The notes under the pieces are model-generated. The model was not told where the DNA came from. It did no database searches and saw only the letters and a list, made by a program, of their open reading frames with translations. Shown here in pieces: positions 852 through 59,814 of a DNA stretch of 64,000 nucleotides. How positions within the stretch are numbered: the stretch's first letter is position 1; each line of letters starts with the position of its first letter. The position numbers were made by a program, and so were the translations under genes. This DNA is from Bifidobacterium sp. N4G05 (GTDB lineage Bacteria; Actinomycetota; Actinomycetes; Actinomycetales; Bifidobacteriaceae): positions 1 to 64,000 of the forward strand of contig NZ_NJNQ01000008.1 in assembly GCF_002742445.1 (NCBI RefSeq), given 5' to 3'.

Positions 852-1863
852 GGTTGACGCTCTTTTCTCCCAATGCCTCCTGAATGAGATCAGCCAGCGT
901 TGCGATGGCTTTTGCATTCGCACGATTAGGTTTGCGAAGTCCGAGCCCTTCCAACAGTTCGCTACAAAGTTTGGCGTCCGTTGTGATGAACGCGGTGATA
1001 TCGCAGTCGAGATATTCCGCCGCTTCCTCGACCGCCGTCACACCATGGTCGCGTATGGTTCCGCGCGGTTGCATGCCTACAAGAAACTCCCGTTCCTGCG
1101 TTGCTGCATCGTGTTCTCCGATTGGATCGCTTAGATTACGTTGCGACTGCATGTTCGCTTTGGCACGGGCAAGGCCAAGTACCGTCATTTCGACCACGGT
1201 GATGCGGATGGCCTGTCGTAGTTCTGTCAGATCTTGCAGTCCGTTCCATTGCCCCATGTCGACGATGACCGCGCTACGTACCTGCGATAGCGCACGAATG
1301 CATGCCTGCACTTCCCAGGATTGCGGATTTTCGGTTTTCCAGGGATCGCAGGACAGCAGTGGTACGCCATCCCAGACTGGCAACTCCCGCAGCAACGCCT
1401 TGCCGTCGATGGTGCCAAGCGGTGCACTGATTTCCCCAAGTCGCGAGCCGTCCTCGTTTTCCACGCCGAGAAGCACGTCAAGGCCTCCGCCTTGCAGATC
1501 GGCATCGACAAGTACGCATTTGAGTCCACGCTCGTTCAGCTCACGAGCCAAGATGGCCGCCAGGGTGCTCGCTCCCACTCCCGCCACCACGGAGTCAACG
1601 ATTACCACATTGCTCACATCGCAGCGTTGTTCTCGCACCGTACGGCCACGCTCGGCAACCATGCCGTACGTTCCAGGCATCGCGCCGACCGGTGTCGCTC
1701 CGCCTTGGACTAATCCAGGTGACGTATAGAACCGTTGCGGAGAGACGGTTCTGCGCTGCGCCGGAGGTGCCGATCGCGATGTGGCCGAGCTCGCGACCGG
1801 CATCAGTCCGCCCGACGGCAGTGGTACCGGAGGCATATTAGGAAAAGACGTTGCGTTACTCAT
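832..1863 (-). CDS. Septum-site-determining-like / TadZ-CpaE family ATPase
   Basis: ParA/MinD-like protein of the Ssd (Rv3660c) / TadZ type, which in Tad loci is thought to localise the pilus machine. A proline-rich N-terminus of about 80 residues precedes a P-loop-like NTPase fold: VVIVDSVVAGVGASTLAAIL (a deviant Walker A), then LVDADLQGGGLDVLLG, and VIVDMGQWNG as the Walker B region. It overlaps tadA by 20 bases and is the first visible gene of the operon. The start at 1863 (MSNATSF) is chosen; an ATG nine codons upstream at 1890 is possible, and neither has a strong ribosome site. DnaA-like boxes lie just upstream at 1933-1989. Confidence 0.8.
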   Translation of the reverse strand: MSNATSFPNMPPVPLPSGGLMPVASSATSRSAPPAQRRTVSPQRFYTSPGLVQGGATPVGAMPGTYGMVAERGRTVREQRCDVSNVVIVDSVVAGVGASTLAAILARELNERGLKCVLVDADLQGGGLDVLLGVENEDGSRLGEISAPLGTIDGKALLRELPVWDGVPLLSCDPWKTENPQSWEVQACIRALSQVRSAVIVDMGQWNGLQDLTELRQAIRITVVEMTVLGLARAKANMQSQRNLSDPIGEHDAATQEREFLVGMQPRGTIRDHGVTAVEEAAEYLDCDITAFITTDAKLCSELLEGLGLRKPNRANAKAIATLADLIQEALGEKSVNHGTRPA

Positions 1864-1932
1864 ACCGTCGATTGAAAAGTCCCGATGCATACCATCGCAA
1901 GCCGAACCGGCCCTGTGGTCGGAGGACGCTAG

Positions 1933-1989
1933 TTATCCACAACCACGGCGTGTCATCCACAGCTATCCACAGGGCATCAAGTATCCACG
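1933..1989. promoter_or_regulatory. Cluster of four DnaA-like boxes
   Basis: Four 9-mers related to TTATCCACA lie within 57 bases, all in the same orientation: TTATCCACA at 1933, TCATCCACA at 1953, CTATCCACA at 1963 and GTATCCACG at 1981. The first is a perfect consensus box. The cluster lies in the upstream region of the leftward ssd-tadA operon. It may be a DnaA titration or regulatory site; no replication gene adjoins it. Confidence 0.6.
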
Positions 1990-2036
1990 TCTGTCGATTC
2001 CCTTCGGAAAACGGGACGGACACATGCCAGCACGCT

Positions 2037-2081
2037 TAAAAAAAAAACAAAAAGGAAGACCCGCCGAAGCGGGCCTTCCTT
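2037..2081 (-). terminator. Rho-independent terminator, leftward
   Basis: A 13-bp stem (GCGGG core, CGAA-type tetraloop) is followed on the minus strand by a T-rich run of about 15 bases. The single imperfect pair is G-U when read on the minus strand, which supports leftward use. It lies upstream of ssd-tadA and ends the candidate small RNA. Confidence 0.8.
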
Positions 2082-2216
2082 GCAAGAAACTTTAAAAGCA
2101 GAATCTCTGCACAACAACATCGTCGTAACGGTAAGTCTATCCAATGCCCGTCCAACGTAACGACCTATCTTGGCCATACACTCTTTGTGGGCTCTGCTCT
2201 TAAGTTGTTCTTGTAC
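2040..2216 (-). ncRNA. Candidate small RNA ending in a strong terminator
   Basis: No credible gene explains the leftward terminator at 2037-2081, yet a promoter-like pair sits about 175 bases upstream on the same strand: TTGCGA, a 16-base spacer, CATAAT (plus positions 2223-2228). The predicted RNA contains GCAGA-GAT-TCTGC, a perfect 5-bp hairpin, and a longer pairing of GTCGTTACG with CGTTACGAC (one mismatch) before the terminator. Open frames here run through the terminator, so a short protein is unlikely. The RNA would be divergent from ppk. It matches no family I can name. Confidence 0.45.
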
Positions 2217-2487
2217 TTTGTAATTATGCTCAGCAATCCGGCAATCGCAAACCGAAATCGGCTGATGTTCCCTATTTATCGCAACTGTTGCTTTGCGATC
2301 GCAAGAATCACGAAAATGTTTCATCATGTGCGAAACGCGCGGCGTGTTTGTTTGATTGCGTGCGTTTGCTGCAAAAAGACGGCGTGTCGACACTTTATTT
2401 TGCATACGAACGAACGAATGTTAACTCCTGCTAAATTTTGACGCTTTTGACGGCATGTCCCGCTACTTAAGGATAAAGTAGGAAAGT

Positions 2488-4722
2488 ATGGCACAGATTT
2501 TTGACGCACCCTCAAAGGCGATCTTGCGCAGCCAGATAGCTGAGCATATCGCCGAGACCGATAAAAACGATAAGCGTGAGCTTCAGGCCGGCGAAGAGCC
2601 GTTGCCGAACGACCGCTTCTTCGACCGCGAGTTGAGCTGGCTGAAGTTCAACAAGCGCGTCCTCGAACTCGCTCAGGACGAGGACCTGCCGATCATCGAA
2701 CGCGCAAGCTTCGCCGCAATCTTCGCGAACAACCTCGACGAGTTCTTCATGGTTCGCGTCGCAGGTCTGAAGCGCCGCATCGACACCGGCATCGCCGTGA
2801 CGGCAGCCTCCGGATTGAGCCCAAGGCAGCAGCTGCGCGCCATCAGCGAGCAAGCACACCGTCTGCAGGACGAGCACGCGCACTACATGATCGATCACAT
2901 TCTTCCCGACCTAGCGAAGGAACAGATCGTGCTTCTGAGCTGGGACAAGCTCACCGCAGCCGAACAGGAGCGCCTGTCTCGCTACTACCGTCAGCAGGTA
3001 TTCCCTGTTCTGACGCCACTGGCCGTGGACCCGGCCCACCCGTTCCCGTACATTTCCGGCGGTTCCATCAACCTCGCCGTGCTCGTGGAGAATCCGGCTT
3101 CCGGCAAGTCCCACTTCGCTCGCGTGAAGATTCCTGGAAACCTGAACCGTCTCGTGCCCGTCGACGATATGACCGACGACGATGCCACCAACGTGCGCTA
3201 CGGCTTCATCACCATGGAGAACCTGATCATCGCGCACCTGGAATCCCTGTTCCCGGGCATGATTATCAAGGAAGCACGTTCCTTCCGCGTTACCCGTAAC
3301 GAGGATATCGACGTGGAAGAGGATGATGCAGAGAACCTGCTCAACGCCATGGAGAAGGAGCTGCTGCGCCGTCGTTTCGGACCGCCGATCCGTCTTGAGA
3401 TTTCCGACGAGACCAGCCCGTTCCTTTCCCAGCTGCTCGCCGACCAGCTGCGCGTCAGCGCCGATGAGGTGTACCGTCTGCCGGCACCGCTCGATGCGAC
3501 CGTGCTCTTCGAACTTGGCGGCATCGACCGTCCGGACTTGAAGTACCGTTCGTTCGTGCCGACCACCAATCGTCAGATTGCCGAGGTGGAGTCGTCCCGC
3601 GCGCAAGACATTTTTGCAGCGATTCGCGAACGCGATATCCTCCTGCATCACCCGTATGATTCGTTCTCTACCTCCGTTCAGGCGTTCCTAGCGCAGGCTG
3701 CGGCGGATCCGAAGGTGCTCGCCATCAAGCAGACGTTGTACCGTACGTCCAGCAACTCCCCGATCATCGACGCGCTCATCGACGCGGCGCATGCGGGCAA
3801 GCAGGTGCTGGCACTGGTCGAAATCAAGGCACGCTTCGATGAAGACGCCAACATCGCATGGGCACGCAAGCTGGAACGTGCCGGCGTGCACGTGGTGTAC
3901 GGCATCGTGGGCCTGAAGACCCACTGCAAGCTGAGCCTTGTGGTGCGTCAGGAAGCCGACGGCCTGCGCCGTTACTGCCATGTGGGCACCGGTAACTACA
4001 ATCCGAAGACCGCCCGTATCTACACCGATCTCGGCTTGCTGACCTGCGATCCGGTGGTCGGCCAGGATATGACCCGCCTGTTCAACCAGCTGTCCGGTTA
4101 TGCTCCGAAGTCGAGCTTCCACCGTCTGCTGGTAGCGCCGCGTACCGTGCGTTCCGGCCTGATTCAGCGCATCCGCCGTGAAGAGGATGCCGCACGCGCA
4201 GGCAAGGAAGCATGGATCAAGATCAAGGTCAACTCCATCGTTGACGAGAAGACCATCGACGCGCTGTACCGTGCAAGCCAGGCCGGCGTGAAGATCGACA
4301 TCGTGGAACGCGGTATCTGCGCGCTCAAGCCGGGTGTTCCGGGACTTTCCGAGAACATTCGCGTGCGTTCCATTCTGGGTCGTTTCCTCGAGCACAGCCG
4401 TATCTACGCATTCGCGAACTCTGATGGCCCGCAGATCGGTGAGGGCCCGGCCGCAGGTCCGGAAGTGTGGATCGGTTCCGCCGATCTGATGCACCGTAAT
4501 CTCGACCGTCGAGTCGAAGCGCTGGTGCGCATCACCGCTCCGGAGCAGATCGACGAACTGATCAAGTACGTGGATCTGCAGATGGCCGATTCCACCACCT
4601 CGTGGCATATGGCAGCCGACGGCACCTACGTGCGTCATGCGAAGGATGAGGAGGGTCGCCCGCTGGTCGATTCCCAGGAATATCTCATCAAGAAGCATAC
4701 GCGCCGACCGGCAAGGCACTAA
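2488..4722 (+). CDS. ppk: Polyphosphate kinase 1
   Basis: Cytoplasmic or membrane-associated enzyme that makes inorganic polyphosphate from ATP by way of a phosphohistidine. The 744 residues match the usual length. The N-terminal domain begins [19 protein letters not shown] and continues with [16 protein letters not shown]. The catalytic half has [15 protein letters not shown], and [11 protein letters not shown], whose His479 matches the phosphorylated histidine of the family. [20 protein letters not shown] and [16 protein letters not shown] follow. The ATG is preceded by GTAGGAAAG. A weak promoter (TTGACG near 2448) may lie upstream. The gene stands alone, followed after 87 bases by a Nudix hydrolase gene. 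Confidence 0.97.
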
Positions 4723-4809
4723 GTTTCGCGAAAATGGCCGATTCTGCAATTGCGGGGTCGGCCATTTTCGTTGCGCAATCATGAACGGTAACCGCGCCTA
4801 CCACTTACA

Positions 4810-5907
4810 ATGAAAGATATGAGCGAGAACATGAGACGTGTCGTAGAAGCCGCCGGGGGTATTGTATGGCGGTGGAAAGCCGGTAGCGAAATCGCTGAAA
4901 ATCCAGCAATCGCAGCACAGAAATCTCCAAAAGAACAACTCAACAGCATTGAAGTGTGCATCGTACATCGACCAAAGTACGATGACTGGAGCTGGCCGAA
5001 AGGCAAACTCGAGCAGGGCGAATCACATCGTCATGCCGCAGTACGAGAAATCGGCGAGGAGACAGGCGTTTCCATCGCCCTCGGCCCGTATCTGTGCGAA
5101 GTCGAGTATCCGTTATCCGAAGAAGGCAAGAAAACCCGGCATTCGCACGATCGCACCGTCGACACCAAGCACACGTTGTATTGGATGGCGCAACCGATTT
5201 CCGGAGATGATGCAGAACATCTGCTTGACGCATTCGGCCCTGTGCATCGCGCAGATGTAGGCGAAATCAACGATATCGTGTGGGTTTCCGTGCGTGAAGC
5301 ACGTAAAATCCTCACACATTCCACCGATAAAGACACCCTCGCCATCTTCGTGGACCGCGTACAGGAGGGTGCCGCGACCGCGCAGAATCTGCTGATCGTG
5401 CGCCATGCCAAGGCTGAATCGCGCAAATCATGGAAAGGCACCGACGCGAACCGGCCGATCACTCCGAAAGGCGCGGCCGCGGCATTCGCACTCAACCGCG
5501 AACTTGCCTGCTACAACCCAACCCGCCTCGCAACCTCACCATGGCTACGCTGTCAGGAAACACTGCAGGTGCTTAGCTGGCAGACCGAACGCCCGATGGA
5601 ACACATCGACGCGCTCACGGAAGACGCCTTCGCCGAACACCCGACCATCGCATGGCTGGCGTTCCTCAAGCAGATCCAGCTCACGCTCGAAACCCGCGAA
5701 ACCACGGCAATCTGCATGCACCGACCGGTAATCGGGGGTATGTTTGACCATCTGCGCGGACTGTGCGCTCGCAAAGCGCTCTCAAAGCAGCTCATCGCCA
5801 AAACGCCGTTCATGCCTACCGGCACCGCCGTAGCGCTGTTTATAATCGATACGCCGCAAGGTCCCAGCATTATCGATATTCAAAAGGTTTCACCCATTGT
5901 CTACTAA
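4810..5907 (+). CDS. Nudix hydrolase fused to histidine phosphatase (MutT1-like)
   Basis: Two-domain protein like mycobacterial MutT1. The Nudix domain comes first, with a full Nudix box at residues 65-87 ([20 protein letters not shown], then TGV). A histidine-phosphatase domain of the SixA/phosphoglycerate-mutase type follows, with RHAKA at about residues 198-202 and a second active-site His in CMHRPVIGG. MutT1 relatives hydrolyse 8-oxo-dGTP or diadenosine polyphosphates and then dephosphorylate the product; which activity applies here cannot be read. The start at 4810 or ATG 4819 are both possible; GAAAGAT before 4819 favours the latter slightly. The stop overlaps the next gene by 11 bases. 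Its position after ppk may reflect phosphate or nucleotide-pool housekeeping. Confidence 0.88.
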
Positions 5908-6652
5908 CATGCATTACGGTTCCGGCTCGGTTATTCCAAGCCGTTCCGCCGGTTTCACCAACACTGGATCGCCGCGCCCGGCCCGCCCGGGGCAACTCGA
6001 CCAGATGATGGCCGACAACATTGCGGGAGGTGCCGATCCGGCGCAGATCAACGAGATGAGCCATGCCTCGGCGGCCGCGCTGCTGGACCGCGTGCATCAC
6101 ACGCAGGACGCCGAACTTGTGGAACGCGTGCTCACGCTGGTGGACCGCGAAGGCGTTGACGTGATCGCCGAATTATGGAGCAGATCTGAGCCGGATTCGC
6201 TGCCGGGCATTCTATGGCGACTGTATGTGCTGCGCACGTGGATGCGGAAGAATCGTGAGTCAATCGCACGATTGTGGCGCGTCGGAGAACCGGTTGCAAC
6301 TACCGCTTCGGCAATTGCCGGAGTCGACCAAGCACCCACGGAAGATGACATTGCGCACACCGCCGATTCGATTCTGACGGGCGCATTCACCGGCGATTTC
6401 GCGATTGCGTTGGAACGTGCAGCGGCGTTCACCGACGTGGTTGCGTTGGGATTGCGCATTGAGGCACGAAATATGGCCTCACGCTTGGAGGCGGTGAATT
6501 CAGAGGCCGTACAAGCGGAAAGCTCGGACGCCACGAAAAAGCAAGCACGCACGAAAGCGGCCCGCTTGATGCACACGGGCGGCAATCTGTTTGTCACCGC
6601 CAAGGATTTTCGTCATGGGGCGAATCTGTGGAGGCGAGGAAAACTGGAGTAG
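5897..6652 (+). CDS. Conserved actinobacterial protein, function unknown
   Basis: Protein of 251 residues whose start appears to be TTG at 5897, with AAAGG about 10 bases upstream; an ATG four codons later (5909) is the alternative. It overlaps the Nudix gene by 11 bases and is probably cotranscribed. The N-terminus is low-complexity (Ser, Gly, Pro), followed by a mostly helical acidic region and a basic C-terminus ending [10 protein letters not shown]. No transmembrane segment or enzyme motif is visible. It resembles proteins sometimes labelled DNA-binding in actinobacterial annotations, but I see no recognised DNA-binding motif and assign no function. Confidence 0.75.
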
Positions 6653-12491: not shown

Positions 12492-14018
12492 TCACTTGCC
12501 CACGCCAGCGTCGGCGACTTCGGCGATTTTGCCGAGCGCCGCTCGCGTTTTAAGCATCGCCGTGTACGTGCAGTAAATGTGCTTAGGGGTACCCGGATTT
12601 GCGTTCACGAACGTTGAGACGGCCTCTTCAAGTTCCGTGTTGACGCTGTTCACCGGCACTTGGTCGTATTCGAGGCGCAACGCCATATCCCATGCGCGTA
12701 CGCCTGAAACCATGGCTACACCGGTGCCTCGCAGCGAAGAGAAATCCACGTCCCACAACCAGCTCATGTCACGACCGTCGGCGTACTCGTCGTTGATAGC
12801 GATCATGGTGTCGCAGCCTTCGGGAGTGAAGGATGCGAGCGACAGACGGAATCCCATGGGGTTTTTGACGAGTAGCAGTTCTACCGGCGAACCGTTTACG
12901 TCGATGACTTCGCCGCGTCCGAACGCCGGAGTGACTTCGGCTGCCGCGTCGATCATGGCTTGCGTGGTGGCGTGCGCAAAATCGATCATGCGCTGTGAGA
13001 TTCCCACTTGTCGCAATAGTTCGTCGGTCACGTTCTCTTCGAACGGCAGGAACATTGCTTGCGCATCGGCCACGACCGCTCGCACGACGGCCAGTGCGGC
13101 CGCCGCGTTGTACAGGTTGTACACACCTTCCAGTTTCACGCCGGTTTCGTACGTTTCGCCGTCGATGCCGAAGCTAGCACGATGGTCGCCTACAGCAAGC
13201 AGGGTCACGTCAGCCGGAAACTGTTCCGCAGATTCTGTATTTTCCGATTTTTCTGCATTTTCCCCAGTTTTCGCAATTGCCGAGGAATCGTTAATCGCAG
13301 TATTCTCGTCCGATTCTGCAGATTCGGACAAGTCAATACCAACTGACGCTTCAGTATCAGTTGCCGATTCCGTATCAACCGTCGTGCGCATATCATCGTC
13401 GGACGGGAAGAAGCTGCGCAACGACCCGTCAAGACCGAAATAGCGCACTTCCACACCATCTTCAGTATGGGCGACGTCAGCAAGTCGTGCGATGCGCGGA
13501 TCCTCACGATTGAGTACCACGGTTCCGGTGGTCGCTTCGGCGGCTTTGCTCAACAGTTTCGCGGTATTGTCGATTTCGCCGAAACGGTCGAGCTGGTCGC
13601 GCATCACGTTGAGCAGCAGGCAGTAGTCGGGCTGTACTTGTTTGACGAAATGCACCGCGTACGCTTCGTCGAGTTCCAATACGGCGATGTCGGCGTCCAG
13701 TTTGCCGCCGAGCGAAACTTCCGCCAGCAGCGACGAGACCACGCCACGGGTGAAGTTCGATCCGGTCGGATTGGTGAACACCTTTAATCCCAACGATTCC
13801 AGCATGCTTGCCACCATACGAGTGGTGGTGGTTTTGCCGTTCGTTCCGGATACGAGCACCACGCCGAGCGGCAGTTGCTGTAGCGTGCGTGCGAGGAATT
13901 GCGGGTCGATCTGTTCCACGATTTTGCCGGGGAACGCGCTGCCGCCGCCATGCGCCAGGCGTGAGGCCGCACGCACGGCTTTGCCAATCAACGGCGTTGC
14001 GAATGAGTTCCACGTCAT
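12492..14018 (-). CDS. murT: Lipid II isoglutaminyl synthase, Mur-ligase-like subunit
   Basis: ATP-dependent Mur-ligase-like subunit that, with GatD, converts the D-isoglutamate of lipid II to D-isoglutamine. Walker A is SGTNGKTTTT (residues 57-66). PTGSNFTRGV, LELDEAY and LLNVMRDQLDRFGEID follow in order, and the C-terminal domain has the active-site Asp region MSWLWDVDFSSL. Length is 508. Residues about 205-268 form a Ser/Glu/Thr/Asn-rich low-complexity insert with no cysteines, in the region where other MurT proteins carry a four-cysteine zinc ribbon. The gene begins two bases after the dnaB stop, so cotranscription is certain in practice. Confidence 0.93.
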   Translation of the reverse strand: MTWNSFATPLIGKAVRAASRLAHGGGSAFPGKIVEQIDPQFLARTLQQLPLGVVLVSGTNGKTTTTRMVASMLESLGLKVFTNPTGSNFTRGVVSSLLAEVSLGGKLDADIAVLELDEAYAVHFVKQVQPDYCLLLNVMRDQLDRFGEIDNTAKLLSKAAEATTGTVVLNREDPRIARLADVAHTEDGVEVRYFGLDGSLRSFFPSDDDMRTTVDTESATDTEASVGIDLSESAESDENTAINDSSAIAKTGENAEKSENTESAEQFPADVTLLAVGDHRASFGIDGETYETGVKLEGVYNLYNAAAALAVVRAVVADAQAMFLPFEENVTDELLRQVGISQRMIDFAHATTQAMIDAAAEVTPAFGRGEVIDVNGSPVELLLVKNPMGFRLSLASFTPEGCDTMIAINDEYADGRDMSWLWDVDFSSLRGTGVAMVSGVRAWDMALRLEYDQVPVNSVNTELEEAVSTFVNANPGTPKHIYCTYTAMLKTRAALGKIAEVADAGVGK

Positions 14019-21802: not shown

Positions 21803-21825
21803 TGTCCGATTCACCAGAATCGGAC
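21803..21825. repeat. Family B intergenic repeat, solo copy
   Basis: Left arm TGTCCGATTC, centre ACCA, right arm GAATCGGAC. This is the same unit that forms the four-copy arrays at 54.8 and 59.1 kb. It lies directly upstream of the tetR ribosome site region. Confidence 0.8.
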
Positions 21826-21862
21826 GATACGTGGGGGTCGGACGGTCAAGGAGCTATCCACG

Positions 21863-54504: not shown

Positions 54505-54612
54505 CTTCCCCTTCCTTGCAAGCACGCTGTCAATTCACACATGTTCACATCAAGACTAACCCAACGTGAACCGGCGCAAGCTTGTCGGGCGCGTGCGCGA
54601 AGATAAAAACAC

Positions 54613-54702
54613 AACCGAACGGGAGCCGAAAGGCTGAGAGGGAGCTCATAGAGCTTCGACCGAGGACTTGATGCGGGTAATGCCGCCGTAAGGAGACGGG
54701 TT
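54613..54702 (+). promoter_or_regulatory. TPP riboswitch
   Basis: The thi-box consensus is clear: GGGAGCC, GGCTGAGAGGGAGC, then GACCGAGGACTTGATGCGGG, TAATGCCGCCGTAAGGAGAC. The aptamer closes with CCG/CGG-type P1 pairing. It precedes thiS-thiF-thiG and a terminator hairpin, so it should reduce transcription when thiamine pyrophosphate is bound. Confidence 0.93.
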
Positions 54703-54788
54703 GTTCACGCCGCAAAGCGTATCTCATCTTCCGTTCGCGATAACCGAATATCGCGTGATTAGGGTCACGGAGGGGCGCACCACCTCAT

Positions 54789-54818
54789 AGGGTACGGTTC
54801 CTTCGGCGACCCTTTTTT
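54789..54818 (+). terminator. Attenuator terminator of the TPP riboswitch
   Basis: AGGGT-A-CG pairs with CG-ACCCT, followed by TTTTTT. It lies 87 bases after the aptamer and 242 bases before thiS. The array of family B repeats starts 16 bases after it. Confidence 0.8.
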
Positions 54819-54833
54819 CGTACCAACCTTGAG

Positions 54834-55010
54834 TGTCCGATTCTGCAGAAACGGACGCACAAGCGGCTCAAACAAGCACCTAAGTGTCCGATTCACCAGA
54901 AACGGACATCCGTGGACTGAAATAGATGCCGTGCGTGTCCGATTCTGCAGAATCGGACATTGAGAGACCAAAAATGAACCTCCGGATGTCCGATTCACCA
55001 GAAACGGACA
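54834..55010. repeat. Family B repeat array, four units at 51-base steps (thi leader)
   Basis: Four 24-base near-palindromes starting at 54834, 54885, 54936 and 54987. Each has left arm TGTCCGATTC, a centre (TGCA or ACCA, alternating) and right arm GAAWCGGACR. The third is a perfect palindrome. The 27-base spacers are unrelated to one another. The array lies in the 5' leader of thiS-thiF-thiG between the riboswitch terminator and the thiS ribosome site. Confidence 0.93.
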
Positions 55011-55059
55011 TTTGGAGTGCAGGAAGCATGTGCCACGACAGACACAGAAGGGAACCGCA

Positions 55060-55254
55060 ATGATCATCAACGGTAAGGAAGAGGACGTCGCCACGCCAAT
55101 CACCGTGGCCGAACTCATCGAAAACAAGGGATTGCGCGCCGACCGCGTGGCTGTCGAGCTCAACGGCGAAATCGTGCCTCGCGCCCAGCGTGCGCAGACG
55201 CAGCTCAAGGGCACCGATACGTTGGAAATCGTCACGTTCGTGCAGGGCGGCTGA
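55060..55254 (+). CDS. thiS: Thiamine biosynthesis sulfur-carrier protein
   Basis: Ubiquitin-like carrier of 64 residues that bears the sulfur for thiazole synthesis as a C-terminal thiocarboxylate. It starts [20 protein letters not shown] with GAAGGGAACC upstream (the longer frame to 55012 is not supported). [12 protein letters not shown] and the terminal VTFVQGG match ThiS. It is first gene of thiS-thiF-thiG and directly controlled by the upstream TPP riboswitch. A 127-base gap separates it from thiF. Confidence 0.95.
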
Positions 55255-55381: not shown

Positions 55382-56095
55382 ATGACTCTTGAACCATCCG
55401 CATCGCAGGCGCAGATCGACGCCCGCCAGCACGCTTTCGACAACCAGCCCGACCCGACCACGCTCGTCAGCCGCGAAGAAATCCGCGCAGCCCTGCTCGA
55501 CCGCCATACCGCAGCCACGCAAGACAAGCTCGACGCGGCGCACGTGGCCATTTGTGGCTGCGGTGGTCTCGGATCGACGATTGCGGTGGCATTGACCCGC
55601 ATTGGCGTCGGCCACCTGCATTTGATTGATTTTGATCGCGTGGATATGACGAATCTGAATCGTCAACAGTATTTTTTGAAGGATCTCGGCCAGTACAAAA
55701 CGGAAGCATTGCGCAGCAACTTGCGTCAGATCAATCCTTTTATCGATATCACCATTGATACCGTGAAAGTGACCGACGAGAACGTACCGACGCTGTTCGA
55801 CAATGAAGATATTATTTGTGAAGCGTTCGACGTGCCGGAAAACAAGACGATGCTGGTGAACGCCGTGCTTGAGAATCTGCCGAATAAGAAGTTGGTGAGC
55901 GCTTCGGGAATGGCAGGATTCCGCAGCTCCAATTTGGTGAATACTCGTCGCGTTTCAAAGAATTTCTACTTCTGCGGCGATGGCGAAACCGCTCCGGTAC
56001 CGGGCGCAGGTTTGATGGCACCGCGTGTGGGCGTGGTCGCCTGCCATGAAGCCAATATGATCACTCGCTTGATTCTTGGCGAAGAAGACGCCTGA
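55382..56095 (+). CDS. thiF: ThiF-family adenylyltransferase
   Basis: E1-like enzyme that adenylates ThiS. The 237 residues have the nucleotide loop ICGCGGLGSTIAVALTRIGV, LHLIDFDRVDMTNLNRQQYF and KTEALRSNLRQINPFI, with the catalytic Arg/Lys pair. CGDGETAPVPGAGLMAPRVG follows. The zinc-binding CxxC pairs of E. coli ThiF are absent, as in the shorter ThiF2-like form. It lies between thiS and thiG. The N-terminus of about 40 residues is poorly conserved. No rhodanese domain is present, so the sulfur donor is another protein. Confidence 0.9.
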   Translation: MTLEPSASQAQIDARQHAFDNQPDPTTLVSREEIRAALLDRHTAATQDKLDAAHVAICGCGGLGSTIAVALTRIGVGHLHLIDFDRVDMTNLNRQQYFLKDLGQYKTEALRSNLRQINPFIDITIDTVKVTDENVPTLFDNEDIICEAFDVPENKTMLVNAVLENLPNKKLVSASGMAGFRSSNLVNTRRVSKNFYFCGDGETAPVPGAGLMAPRVGVVACHEANMITRLILGEEDA

Positions 56096-56165: not shown

Positions 56166-57080
56166 ATGAGCACCGAAAACACGATCACCACCGCGGAAAA
56201 GGACTTCGCGGCAGCACCGAACGCCACACTCGACGAGCTGGTCGGCACCACCACGAATACCGCACTGCTGCCGGAGCCGGATGCGCACGCGTATGACGAA
56301 ATCGCCACCGGTGACGCCGATCCGCTGATTCTCGGCGGCCACAAGTTCACAAGCCGTTTCATTCTCGGATCCGGCCGCTACGATCTGAACCTCATCAAGG
56401 CGACCATTGAGAACGCAGGCACGCAGATCGTCACCATGGCGTTGCGCCGCTGCCGCACCACCGAAAACAATCTACTCGACTACATTCCGAAGGGCATCAC
56501 CATGCTGCCGAACACGTCCGGCGCACGCAATGCCGAAGAGGCGGTGCGCATTGCCCGTCTCGCGCGCGAAGTGTGCCAGACGGATTTCGTGAAGGTGGAG
56601 ATCGAGCATGAGGCGAAGTATCTGCTGCCCGACAATGAGGAAACCATCAAAGCCACGAAACAGCTGGCAAAAGAAGGCTTCGTGGTCATGCCGTACATGT
56701 TCCCCGATCCGATTGCGGCGAAGCGTCTTGAAGACGCAGGTGCGGCTTGCGTAATGCCGCTTGGCGCGATGATCGGCTCGAATAAGGGCCTGCGTGCACG
56801 CGATTTCATTGAAGTGATTATCAAGAATTCCAATGTTCCGGTGATCATCGACGCTGGTATTGGCCGTCCGAGCCAGGCTGCGGAAGCCATGGAAATGGGC
56901 GCGGACGCGGTGATGGCTTATACGGCCATCGCTTCCGCCGGCAATATTCCGCTGATGGCACGCGCGTTCAAGAAGGCGATCGAAGCGGGTCGTGAAGCGT
57001 ATTTGTCTGGCTTGGGCAAGGTTACGGAAGATCATGCCGTGCCGTCCAGTCCGACGAACGAAGCCGACTACATCGGCTGA
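56166..57080 (+). CDS. thiG: Thiazole synthase
   Basis: TIM-barrel enzyme that forms the thiazole from DXP, dehydroglycine and ThiS thiocarboxylate. The 304 residues include an N-terminal extension of about 50 over the usual length. Core motifs are [80 protein letters not shown] (with the Schiff-base Lys in the VKVE strand), [18 protein letters not shown] and [21 protein letters not shown] 70-base gap follows thiF. No glycine oxidase (thiO) or thiH gene follows, so dehydroglycine must come from elsewhere. Confidence 0.95.
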
Positions 57081-59104: not shown

Positions 59105-59281
59105 TGTCTGATTCTGCAGAAACGGACACCCACAGCACACTTTCAGTACTCCAGTTGTCCGATTCTGGAGAAACGGACATCCGCAACGCACTTTCGCCGC
59201 ATTACTTGTCCGATTCACCAGAAACGGACAACTGAGACCCGTTTTTGCCTGTGTACTTGTCCGATTCTGCAGAATCGGACA
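59105..59281. repeat. Family B repeat array, four units at 51-base steps (permease upstream region)
   Basis: Units start at 59105, 59156, 59207 and 59258, again exactly 51 bases apart. Left arm TGTCYGATTC, centre TGCA, TGGA, ACCA or TGCA, right arm GAAWCGGACA. The last unit is a perfect palindrome. Spacers are unrelated to those of the thi array. Confidence 0.93.
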
Positions 59282-59307: not shown

Positions 59308-59814
59308 TCAGGCGGTGGCGGCGATTTGCCCGCGCAGTTCGGCGTTCACACGTTCCAGTTCATCGATACGGCGTGCCTGCTGCTTGATGATGATGCTCGC
59401 CGTTCCCATGTCGATACCGTCGCCGCCTTGCGTTTTGACGGGAATATGTTCCATCGGCCTGTTGGCGATGCTGTCGAGGTTGCGTCTCATCATGAACGCA
59501 TGCTCATACCGGTTGACGAGTTGCGCGATGATCTCGCTGTCGCTCATGTTACCGCTGCCGGTCACGGATTTGATGGCCGATGTTTTCCAACGGTCCACGC
59601 ACCGCTCGATGCGCTTATATCCGATGAGATCCGGCGGAAGTCCCGCTTCCCGGAAGATTTTGGTTGGCGATTCGCCTGTCAAATAGCGGATGGTGCACAC
59701 TTGCTTGAACGAATCGGCGTAGGTGATGCGATTACGCGTTACGTTGGCGACCGCCGGCAGTCCGCGCAATAGTTGGATTTCCTCGTCGCTGAATGCTCCC
59801 CCACCTCGTGCCAT
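59308..59814 (-). CDS. HTH protein, possibly transposase-associated
   Basis: A 168-residue basic protein with GGTGTC preceded by GAAAGGCGGG as its ribosome site. LPAVANVTRNRITYADSFKQ and VCTIRYLTGESPTKIFREAG, LPPDLIGYKRIERCVDRWK form two helical HTH-like segments of the kind seen in accessory proteins of IS3-type elements. The C-terminal third is a coiled coil (IIIKQQARRIDELERVNAEL). No transposase catalytic gene or terminal inverted repeats lie nearby, so it is an orphan. It sits between the family B array and the pilus operon. Confidence 0.75.
   Translation of the reverse strand: MARGGGAFSDEEIQLLRGLPAVANVTRNRITYADSFKQVCTIRYLTGESPTKIFREAGLPPDLIGYKRIERCVDRWKTSAIKSVTGSGNMSDSEIIAQLVNRYEHAFMMRRNLDSIANRPMEHIPVKTQGGDGIDMGTASIIIKQQARRIDELERVNAELRGQIAATA

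Follow-up and report, generated by a model that had tools for sequence, protein, structure and literature searches.

Palindromes phased at 51 bp beside oriC in Bifidobacterium point to an undescribed chromosome-binding system or repeat family

Palindromes of 24 bases, strung mostly at steps of exactly 51 bp both between and inside genes and concentrated beside oriC, were found in a group of Bifidobacterium genomes, and these phased arrays point to an undescribed chromosome-binding system or an undescribed repeat family. The interpretation tentatively preferred here, from the patterns in the sequence, is that the palindromes are phased operator arrays of a putative DNA-binding protein that may organise the origin region. 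The window, which is the whole stretch of 64,000 nucleotides analysed here, is part of contig C11 of the Bifidobacterium sp. N4G05 assembly (genome G000; 2.07 Mb, 12 contigs). Its features are as follows, with the strand where one was assigned.

13307..13330, single site within a MurT-like ligase gene (12492-14018, minus strand), reading LSESAESD
21803..21826, single site, intergenic
54609..54712, plus strand, TPP riboswitch aptamer, upstream neighbour of the array and outside the element; 48.6 bits, below the Rfam gathering score of 54.3, E 1.7e-8
54834..54857, palindrome unit 1, centre TGCA; final base G, not A
54885..54908, palindrome unit 2, centre ACCA; 51 bp past unit 1
54936..54959, palindrome unit 3, centre TGCA; perfect palindrome; 51 bp past unit 2
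54987..55010, palindrome unit 4, centre ACCA; 51 bp past unit 3
55060..55254, plus strand, thiS (Pfam ThiS), neighbour downstream of the array
55382-56095, thiF (Pfam ThiF), after thiS
56166-57080, thiG (Pfam ThiG), after thiF
59105..59281, second array, four units at 59105, 59156, 59207 and 59258; 51-bp steps

Arrays in the window and across the genus

A pattern scan of the window gave four copies of the palindrome at 54834-55010 with every step exactly 51, and both this step and the alternation of the unit centre (TGCA/ACCA/TGCA/ACCA) bear out the original prediction. The array had also been placed between a TPP-riboswitch terminator and thiS. The aptamer upstream, scoring below the gathering score, and thiS downstream agree with this placement; the terminator is putative and comes from the fold and a reading of the sequence, in which a long stem upstream of the array closes directly before TTTTTT, and a simple terminator scan gave none ahead of the array. 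The second array is intergenic and ends 27 bp from a small HTH gene according to our own gene caller. Searching the window with TGTCCGATTC-N4-GAAWCGGACA and up to 3 mismatches returned 20 strand-matches at 10 places (shuffle mean 0.01), namely the two four-unit arrays and the single sites at 13307 and 21803. The site at 13307 is retained in genome G060, has one further change in G019 and is more decayed in G020, and the site at 21803 has the same sequence in G019.

The window array is not a thiamine feature, because relatives have 1, 1, 2 or 0 units at the locus. Four units in G000 correspond to two in G020 and to one each in G060 and G019, the lone site of the latter two starting like unit 1 and ending in the flank of unit 4, and the same place in G006 has no site, the best match there having 8 mismatches. 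G028 has two units in the corresponding region. The suggested role in the thiamine leader is thus unsupported, with the unit number at the locus running 4/2/1/1/0 across relatives and the same palindromes lying beside or inside many unrelated genes. No single array is essential, since unit number varies freely between close relatives.

Throughout G000 the strict pattern gave 45 forward and 35 reverse matches with none for the reversed control, and a looser pattern gave 78 sites (control 0). The strict motif is present in 17 of 112 Bifidobacterium genomes. By the looser pattern 16 of the 112 have at least 22 sites and six more have 7-12, the control always giving 4 or fewer. Family-wide, with one mismatch allowed, the motif occurs in 20 of 189 genomes and in one of 16 genera. 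Two adjacent units were found in 27 stretches of named records, all Bifidobacterium, namely erythrocebi, moukalabense, catenulatum subsp. kashiwanohense, ruminantium, pongonis and merycicum. Seven stretches from six genomes, with 263 sites in total, served for the comparisons below. These sites fall into 126 groups (47 single sites, 43 pairs, 22 triplets, and 8, 4 and 2 groups of four, five and six sites respectively), and a string of nine units, read from two-unit matches, lies at C10:67.4-67.8 kb in G030.

Spacing, flanks and half-sites

Among intergenic neighbours 26-110 bp apart in the six genomes the step is exactly 51 in 85 of 97 cases, the other steps being 48 (twice), 49 (twice), 50 (three times), 52 (three times) and 102 (twice). 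Coding neighbours show the 51-bp step in 42 of 42. As the intergenic step is exact where no reading frame requires one, coding selection cannot explain the intergenic spacing. The 27-base spacers, originally taken to be unrelated, share a symmetric pattern in the six genomes (n = 127). A pyrimidine-purine step stands at positions 3-4 in 113 and at positions 24-25 in 117 of them, against a background of 27%, so that the two steps mirror each other about 15 bp from each dyad, alike in intergenic and coding spacers. Spacer positions 13-15 read AAA or TTT in 49 of 127 (background 2.2%). Complementarity of the spacer ends to each other is not above chance. The first two flanking bases on each side do complement above chance (71 vs 48.8 and 54 vs 41.0, of 160), hence the dyad extends slightly beyond the site, and the symmetrised profile of the 263 sites has loose NNYR flanks with no fixed tetranucleotide.

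The two arms of the palindrome vary nearly independently. At the variable arm pair the 263 sites have A-T in 181, A-A in 41, T-T in 38 and other combinations in three; T-A, of which the column counts predict about 6, occurs 0 times, and both half-sites are weak at this position in 0 of 263. A maintained stem would show T-A. Changes on both sides that still pair occur four times at the outermost pair and once at the second pair and never at arm pairs 3-10, where pairing is as expected, or below, for independent halves. Such variation, with no more than one weak half-site per palindrome, favours a DNA-binding dimer over an RNA stem. In the original prediction the arrays were proposed to be a phased binding site on DNA or RNA; these data favour the DNA part and, with no paired changes at arm pairs 3-10, speak against the RNA part.

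Two further observations concern the palindrome and its surroundings. In the centre the two middle bases are nearly always G/C, and their pairing is far below that expected (66 observed vs 137 of 263). At about 5929-6003 of one stretch (L003, contig C9 of G000) and at its G019 counterpart, the sites lie within a longer perfect inverted repeat, gcgtcttggg-site-cccaagacgc, in which the outer flank recurs as its reverse complement in the spacer half, as template switching would produce.

Position beside oriC and other palindromes of the same geometry

The sites are concentrated beside the origin. In five single-contig genomes 71-78% of the sites lie in 8-11% of the chromosome beside oriC: 28 of 37 within 200 kb in G020, 59 of 77 within 200 kb in G028, 25 of 35 within 200 kb in G019, 49 of 63 within 260 kb in G060, and 35 of 45 within 220 kb, left of oriC, in G006. 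Enrichment in this domain was found in all five, with binomial p of 3e-18 to 3e-50, values that are too small because arrays and shared descent make the sites dependent. In G000 dnaA lies on contig C9 at 112,699 on the minus strand; this contig has 50 sites at 1.6-79.7 kb, and the rest of it, which extends past dnaA to 143 kb, has none. Contigs C9 and C11 together carry 62 of the 78 sites, and the pieces of C4 and C5 examined carry 9. C9 and C11 are unjoined in the assembly and the window array was placed by synteny, its orthologous place in G019, G060 and G020 being 109-147 kb along the chromosome with dnaA at 1.2 kb. Two-unit matches gave the same picture on the dnaA contigs of G051 (54 of 59, 57-152 kb right of dnaA) and G030 (68 of 88, 29-124 kb left of dnaA). 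Overall, distances of roughly 10-240 kb from oriC are where the strings concentrate. This bias partly reflects common descent of the gene block, since many array positions are inherited between species; in G006 the same gene block lies on the opposite chromosome arm. The arrays of G028 at 10.6-35 kb, and those within genes at 123-127 kb, have no aligned counterpart there in G000. It had been proposed that phasing by chance would appear as a lack of preferred spacing and position across the genus. Spacing is strongly preferred and position strongly origin-biased in the genomes measured, and the phasing is accordingly not of that kind.

Palindromes of other spellings show the same geometry. G072 has a drifted motif beginning GTCCGATNC at 68 sites. 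Among the 50 of these that were listed, the steps are mostly multiples of 51 (51, 102, 153, 204); a few deviate by one to three and a single step is 124. Of the 50, 24 are on the dnaA contig at 19-119 kb right of dnaA and the other 26 are on unplaced contigs. Nine genomes that lack the window motif (G007, G011, G013, G024, G031, G074, G085, G090 and G104) were scanned without a preset motif, over 100-200 kb beside oriC in each and further stretches of G007, and clear 51/52-bp palindrome arrays appeared in two of them, G090 and G007. A few candidate 52-bp repeats were present in G024, and in the stretches examined of the other six no comparable 51/52 arrays were found. In several scanned genomes 51 or 102 was among the commoner repeat distances, like many other multiples of three, and was taken as coding noise.

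The core in G090 is GACGGTAGCGTC at exact 51-bp steps, and at about 13-17 bp from the dyad it has T/A tracts and TGCA on its flanks. Across the genus this core has 27 matches in G090, 18 in G083, 9 in G082, 8 in G089 and at most 5 elsewhere, with steps of 50-52 and 102-103. Its origin bias is uneven: G090 has 14 of its 27 matches in the 130 kb to the right of oriC, and in G083, whose dnaA is at the chromosome end, 9 of 18 fall at 65-99 kb; the near-origin share is low in G082 (about 1 of 9) and in G089 (2 of 8). The core also contains GTAG and CGTC, listed as tetranucleotide tags of REP superfamilies in the relevant section of PMC3733652, possibly by chance. G007 has the core CGGAAGCTTCCG, of which as many as eight units follow one another at 52 bp (occasionally 51, once 40), a step not divisible by three; GG and CC are conserved at 15.5-16.5 bp from the dyad. 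By our own gene calls all six arrays of at least two units in its right-hand 100 kb are intergenic. Steps of 48-55 bp from one core hit to the next in G007 number 23 per 100 kb at 20-120 kb right of oriC and 14 at 0-100 kb left, falling to 7 at 220-320 kb and to 0 at both 900-1000 kb and 1400-1500 kb. No 51/52 pairs of CGGAAGCTTCCG were found in ten regions of other genomes. Three unrelated palindrome spellings thus have one geometry, the window motif and GACGGTAGCGTC at 51 bp and CGGAAGCTTCCG at 52 bp. Neither GACGGTAGCGTC nor CGGAAGCTTCCG was found in the main texts of the bifidobacterial literature searched.

Sites in genes, turnover and possible explanations

By a codon-usage gene caller, whose coding and intergenic labels are not an annotation, 97 of the 263 sites are in predicted coding sequence (coding fraction 0.82). 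All 97 are in one codon phase, 60 read exactly [MLV]SDS[AGP]ESD and the remainder are close variants, with a repeat period of 17 residues. Among the host proteins, four have Pfam matches (E1-E2 ATPase, FtsX, sortase and MurT) and another is THUMP-like. The unused frames of the consensus would read CPILQNRT or VRFCRIG, and the frame in use is the hydrophilic one. With a naive caller most arrays were spanned by open reading frames, since the palindrome has no stop in any frame and the step of 51 is divisible by three; such open frames called across arrays may be wrong. Intergenic regions of 40-1500 bp have sites in 19 of 143 convergent, 14 of 152 divergent and 25 of 390 tandem cases. One FtsX-like gene (1726-4920 of stretch L001) holds three arrays, two with the similar spacers NQTGENGSQ and NQSGKNGSQ, and one of the three places is empty in G060.

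Comparison of G000, G060, G019 and G020 at orthologous loci showed a length between matching flanks of exactly 24+51k in 22 of 37 comparisons, the remaining 15 ending in diverged flanks or indels; 7 of 24 loci had no usable comparison and gaps above 600 bp were left out. The recognised unit number differs from G000 in 15 of the 22, once through decay of a site and not through length. Hybrid palindromes mark deletions, so some losses are recombination between palindromes. In full-versus-empty comparisons of the four related genomes there were no clean insertion ends and no target duplication; empty sites exist, with flanks that differ over tens of bases, and such replaced flanks conceal any ends or duplications. 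Differences per position amounted to 20/702 in the arms, 34/594 in the spacers, 10/78 at the variable W and 26/156 in the centre, counted over 39 non-independent palindrome pairs next to orthologous spacers with at most 7 differences. The arms thus change about half as fast as the spacers and the centre about three times faster than the spacers, exchange between copies being one possibility for the fast centre.

On the preferred reading, each palindrome would be a double-stranded site for a putative dimeric DNA-binding protein, a 24-bp dyad with half-site TGTCCGWTTC around a loose four-base centre and with probable kinks or secondary contacts about 15 bp out on each side. A step of 51 bp is about five helical turns and would set neighbouring dimers on one helix face, where they may bind cooperatively or wrap the DNA, and the strings may mark or fold the chromosome near oriC. 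We infer protein binding, cooperative binding and a chromosome-organising job near the origin; the exact phase, mirrored flanks, nearly independent halves, origin bias and shared geometry are what would be expected of cooperative binding-site strings. Against such arrays speak the failure to find a binder among the protein families searched, the inheritance of array positions, the variable unit number, the 26 sites of G072 on unplaced contigs, the uneven origin bias of GACGGTAGCGTC, the arms being only about twice as conserved as the spacers, and the six of nine scanned genomes with no 51/52 arrays in the stretches covered. A wider proposal, possible and rather doubtful, is an undescribed origin-domain system in which a family of binders with clade-specific half-sites (TGTCCGATTC, GACGGT and CGGAAG) shares one geometry, in which dyads recur every 51-52 bp and each has secondary contacts at a distance of about 15-16 bp. 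Its strings would fold, anchor or segregate the origin region, and selection would keep sites in genes as 17-residue inserts.

It is also quite conceivable that the palindromes are a selfish or neutral repeat of the REP or RPE kind, spread and lost by recombination between palindromes, with gene copies surviving only in the frame that gives a hydrophilic, flexible peptide. Such a repeat explains the in-frame copies and the changes in copy number as well as or better than binding sites do: the single phase of all coding sites is as in the Rickettsia RPEs treated in PMC3733652, locus length follows 24+51k with unit numbers that mostly differ, hybrid palindromes mark deletions, the rapid change of the centre suggests exchange between copies, and clustering in one gene block fits local spread. 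Alone it has no account of the exact intergenic spacing, the mirrored flanks or the geometry of 51-52 bp shared by three sequences, clean insertion ends and target duplications were not found in the four related genomes, and the window genome has no Y1 transposase. The binding-site and selfish readings are compatible, as binding sites could have been recruited from a repeat family. Operators of a gene regulon that lies near oriC by chance are an unlikely source of the arrays; sites of this kind are palindromic, phased and often intergenic and the window array is in a leader, but the palindromes occur in convergent, divergent and tandem regions and in coding sequence alike, beside unrelated genes, and relatives differ in how many units a given gene has. 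Transcript-level RNA hairpins, with a role in mRNA stability or leader folding, are very improbable. The region 54740-55070 folds far above shuffled sequence (z -6.75), as expected of any palindrome array, and the two outermost pairs have the five double changes that still pair, but pairs 3-10 have none, T-A is missing and the spacer ends are not paired beyond chance. A CRISPR-like repeat-spacer array, with a 24-base repeat, a 27-base spacer and a regular step, is barely credible. In Table 1 of PMC4521832 the window repeat is entered as an 'Undetermined' CRISPR with 8 repeats in B. dentium and 16 in B. ruminantium, 'Undetermined' being used there for arrays without annotated cas genes. In the stretches of the six genomes the sites instead form 126 small groups of 1-6 units, many in frame in genes, with variation in both repeat halves and patterned spacers, and not near-identical directional repeats at one locus between unrelated spacers, so that the original view of them as not CRISPR-like was right.

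Among known systems, the sites of RacA/ram, Noc/NBS, MatP/matS and ParB/parS resemble the palindromes in their domain concentration, many copies lying in one chromosomal domain independent of gene function. To our knowledge those sites are not strung at a fixed step, whereas here there are strings of 2-6 sites in the stretches measured, and of nine in G030. Mycobacterial interspersed repetitive units resemble the palindromes as tandem units of actinobacteria, about 46-101 bp long, that are dispersed between genes; as far as we know they are not palindromic, unlike those here. The REP palindromes described in PMC3733652 are of 20-40 bp and high copy, and REP are often in composite groups as outlined in PMC2817692. 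The present palindromes share both properties with REP/BIME with RAYT but have no GTAG tag, no Y1 in the window genome, a fixed 51-bp step, diverged spacers and an origin bias; GTAG/CGTC end tags were not found on the window palindromes (263 sites). RPE, according to the part of PMC3733652 devoted to them, are short palindromic repeats that end in CGTC, many in frame inside ORFs likely encoding functional proteins. The palindromes here are similarly short with in-frame copies in protein genes, but differ in their 51-bp phase, multi-unit arrays, symmetric flanks, origin clustering and lack of a CGTC end. PARCEL, as summarised in PMC2996958, are tandem coding repeats with DNA dyad symmetry, unit-to-unit variation and a 25-residue amphipathic unit; here the unit is of 17 residues, acidic and serine-rich, and most sites are non-coding. 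In the main texts searched, the window repeat was found described only in PMC4521832.

If a protein binds the strings, bifidobacteria have an origin-region organiser outside ParB/parS, and three families with one geometry are a natural experiment in the joint change of protein and site specificity. If the repeat is selfish, it combines a maintained 51-bp step with entry into proteins in a single frame, which we know of in no REP or RPE family of palindromic elements. Either way, the two survey entries in Table 1 of PMC4521832 need another explanation than CRISPR.

The search for a binder covered selected protein families in the 112 genomes, and none of these (neighbouring HTH genes, ParB and Y1 transposases) tracks the sites; no binder was found among them, and one may well belong to another family. 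Paralogous small HTH proteins with weak HTH_Tnp_2 matches, below the curated cut-off, are encoded directly beside arrays at 59308-59814 of the window and at 5882-6343 of stretch L008. The HTH_Tnp_2-like gene of the window has matches in 72 of 112 genomes, often several, and is no marker because it is also in genomes without sites. Y1_Tnp is in 7 of 112 genomes and in four of the 16 with at least 22 sites (G019, G059, G060 and G069); the genomes with the repeat do not share a dedicated RAYT transposase. ParB_N is in 110 of 112 genomes with no difference seen, and the palindromes are not parS, being of different sequence; with one mismatch allowed, four parS-like sites are at C9 116-122 kb near dnaA in G000, separate from the palindromes. 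In many Bifidobacterium genomes, among the matches listed, the ParB_N Pfam match of the parB near dnaA is split in two, which suggests an insertion inside the ParB N-terminal domain.
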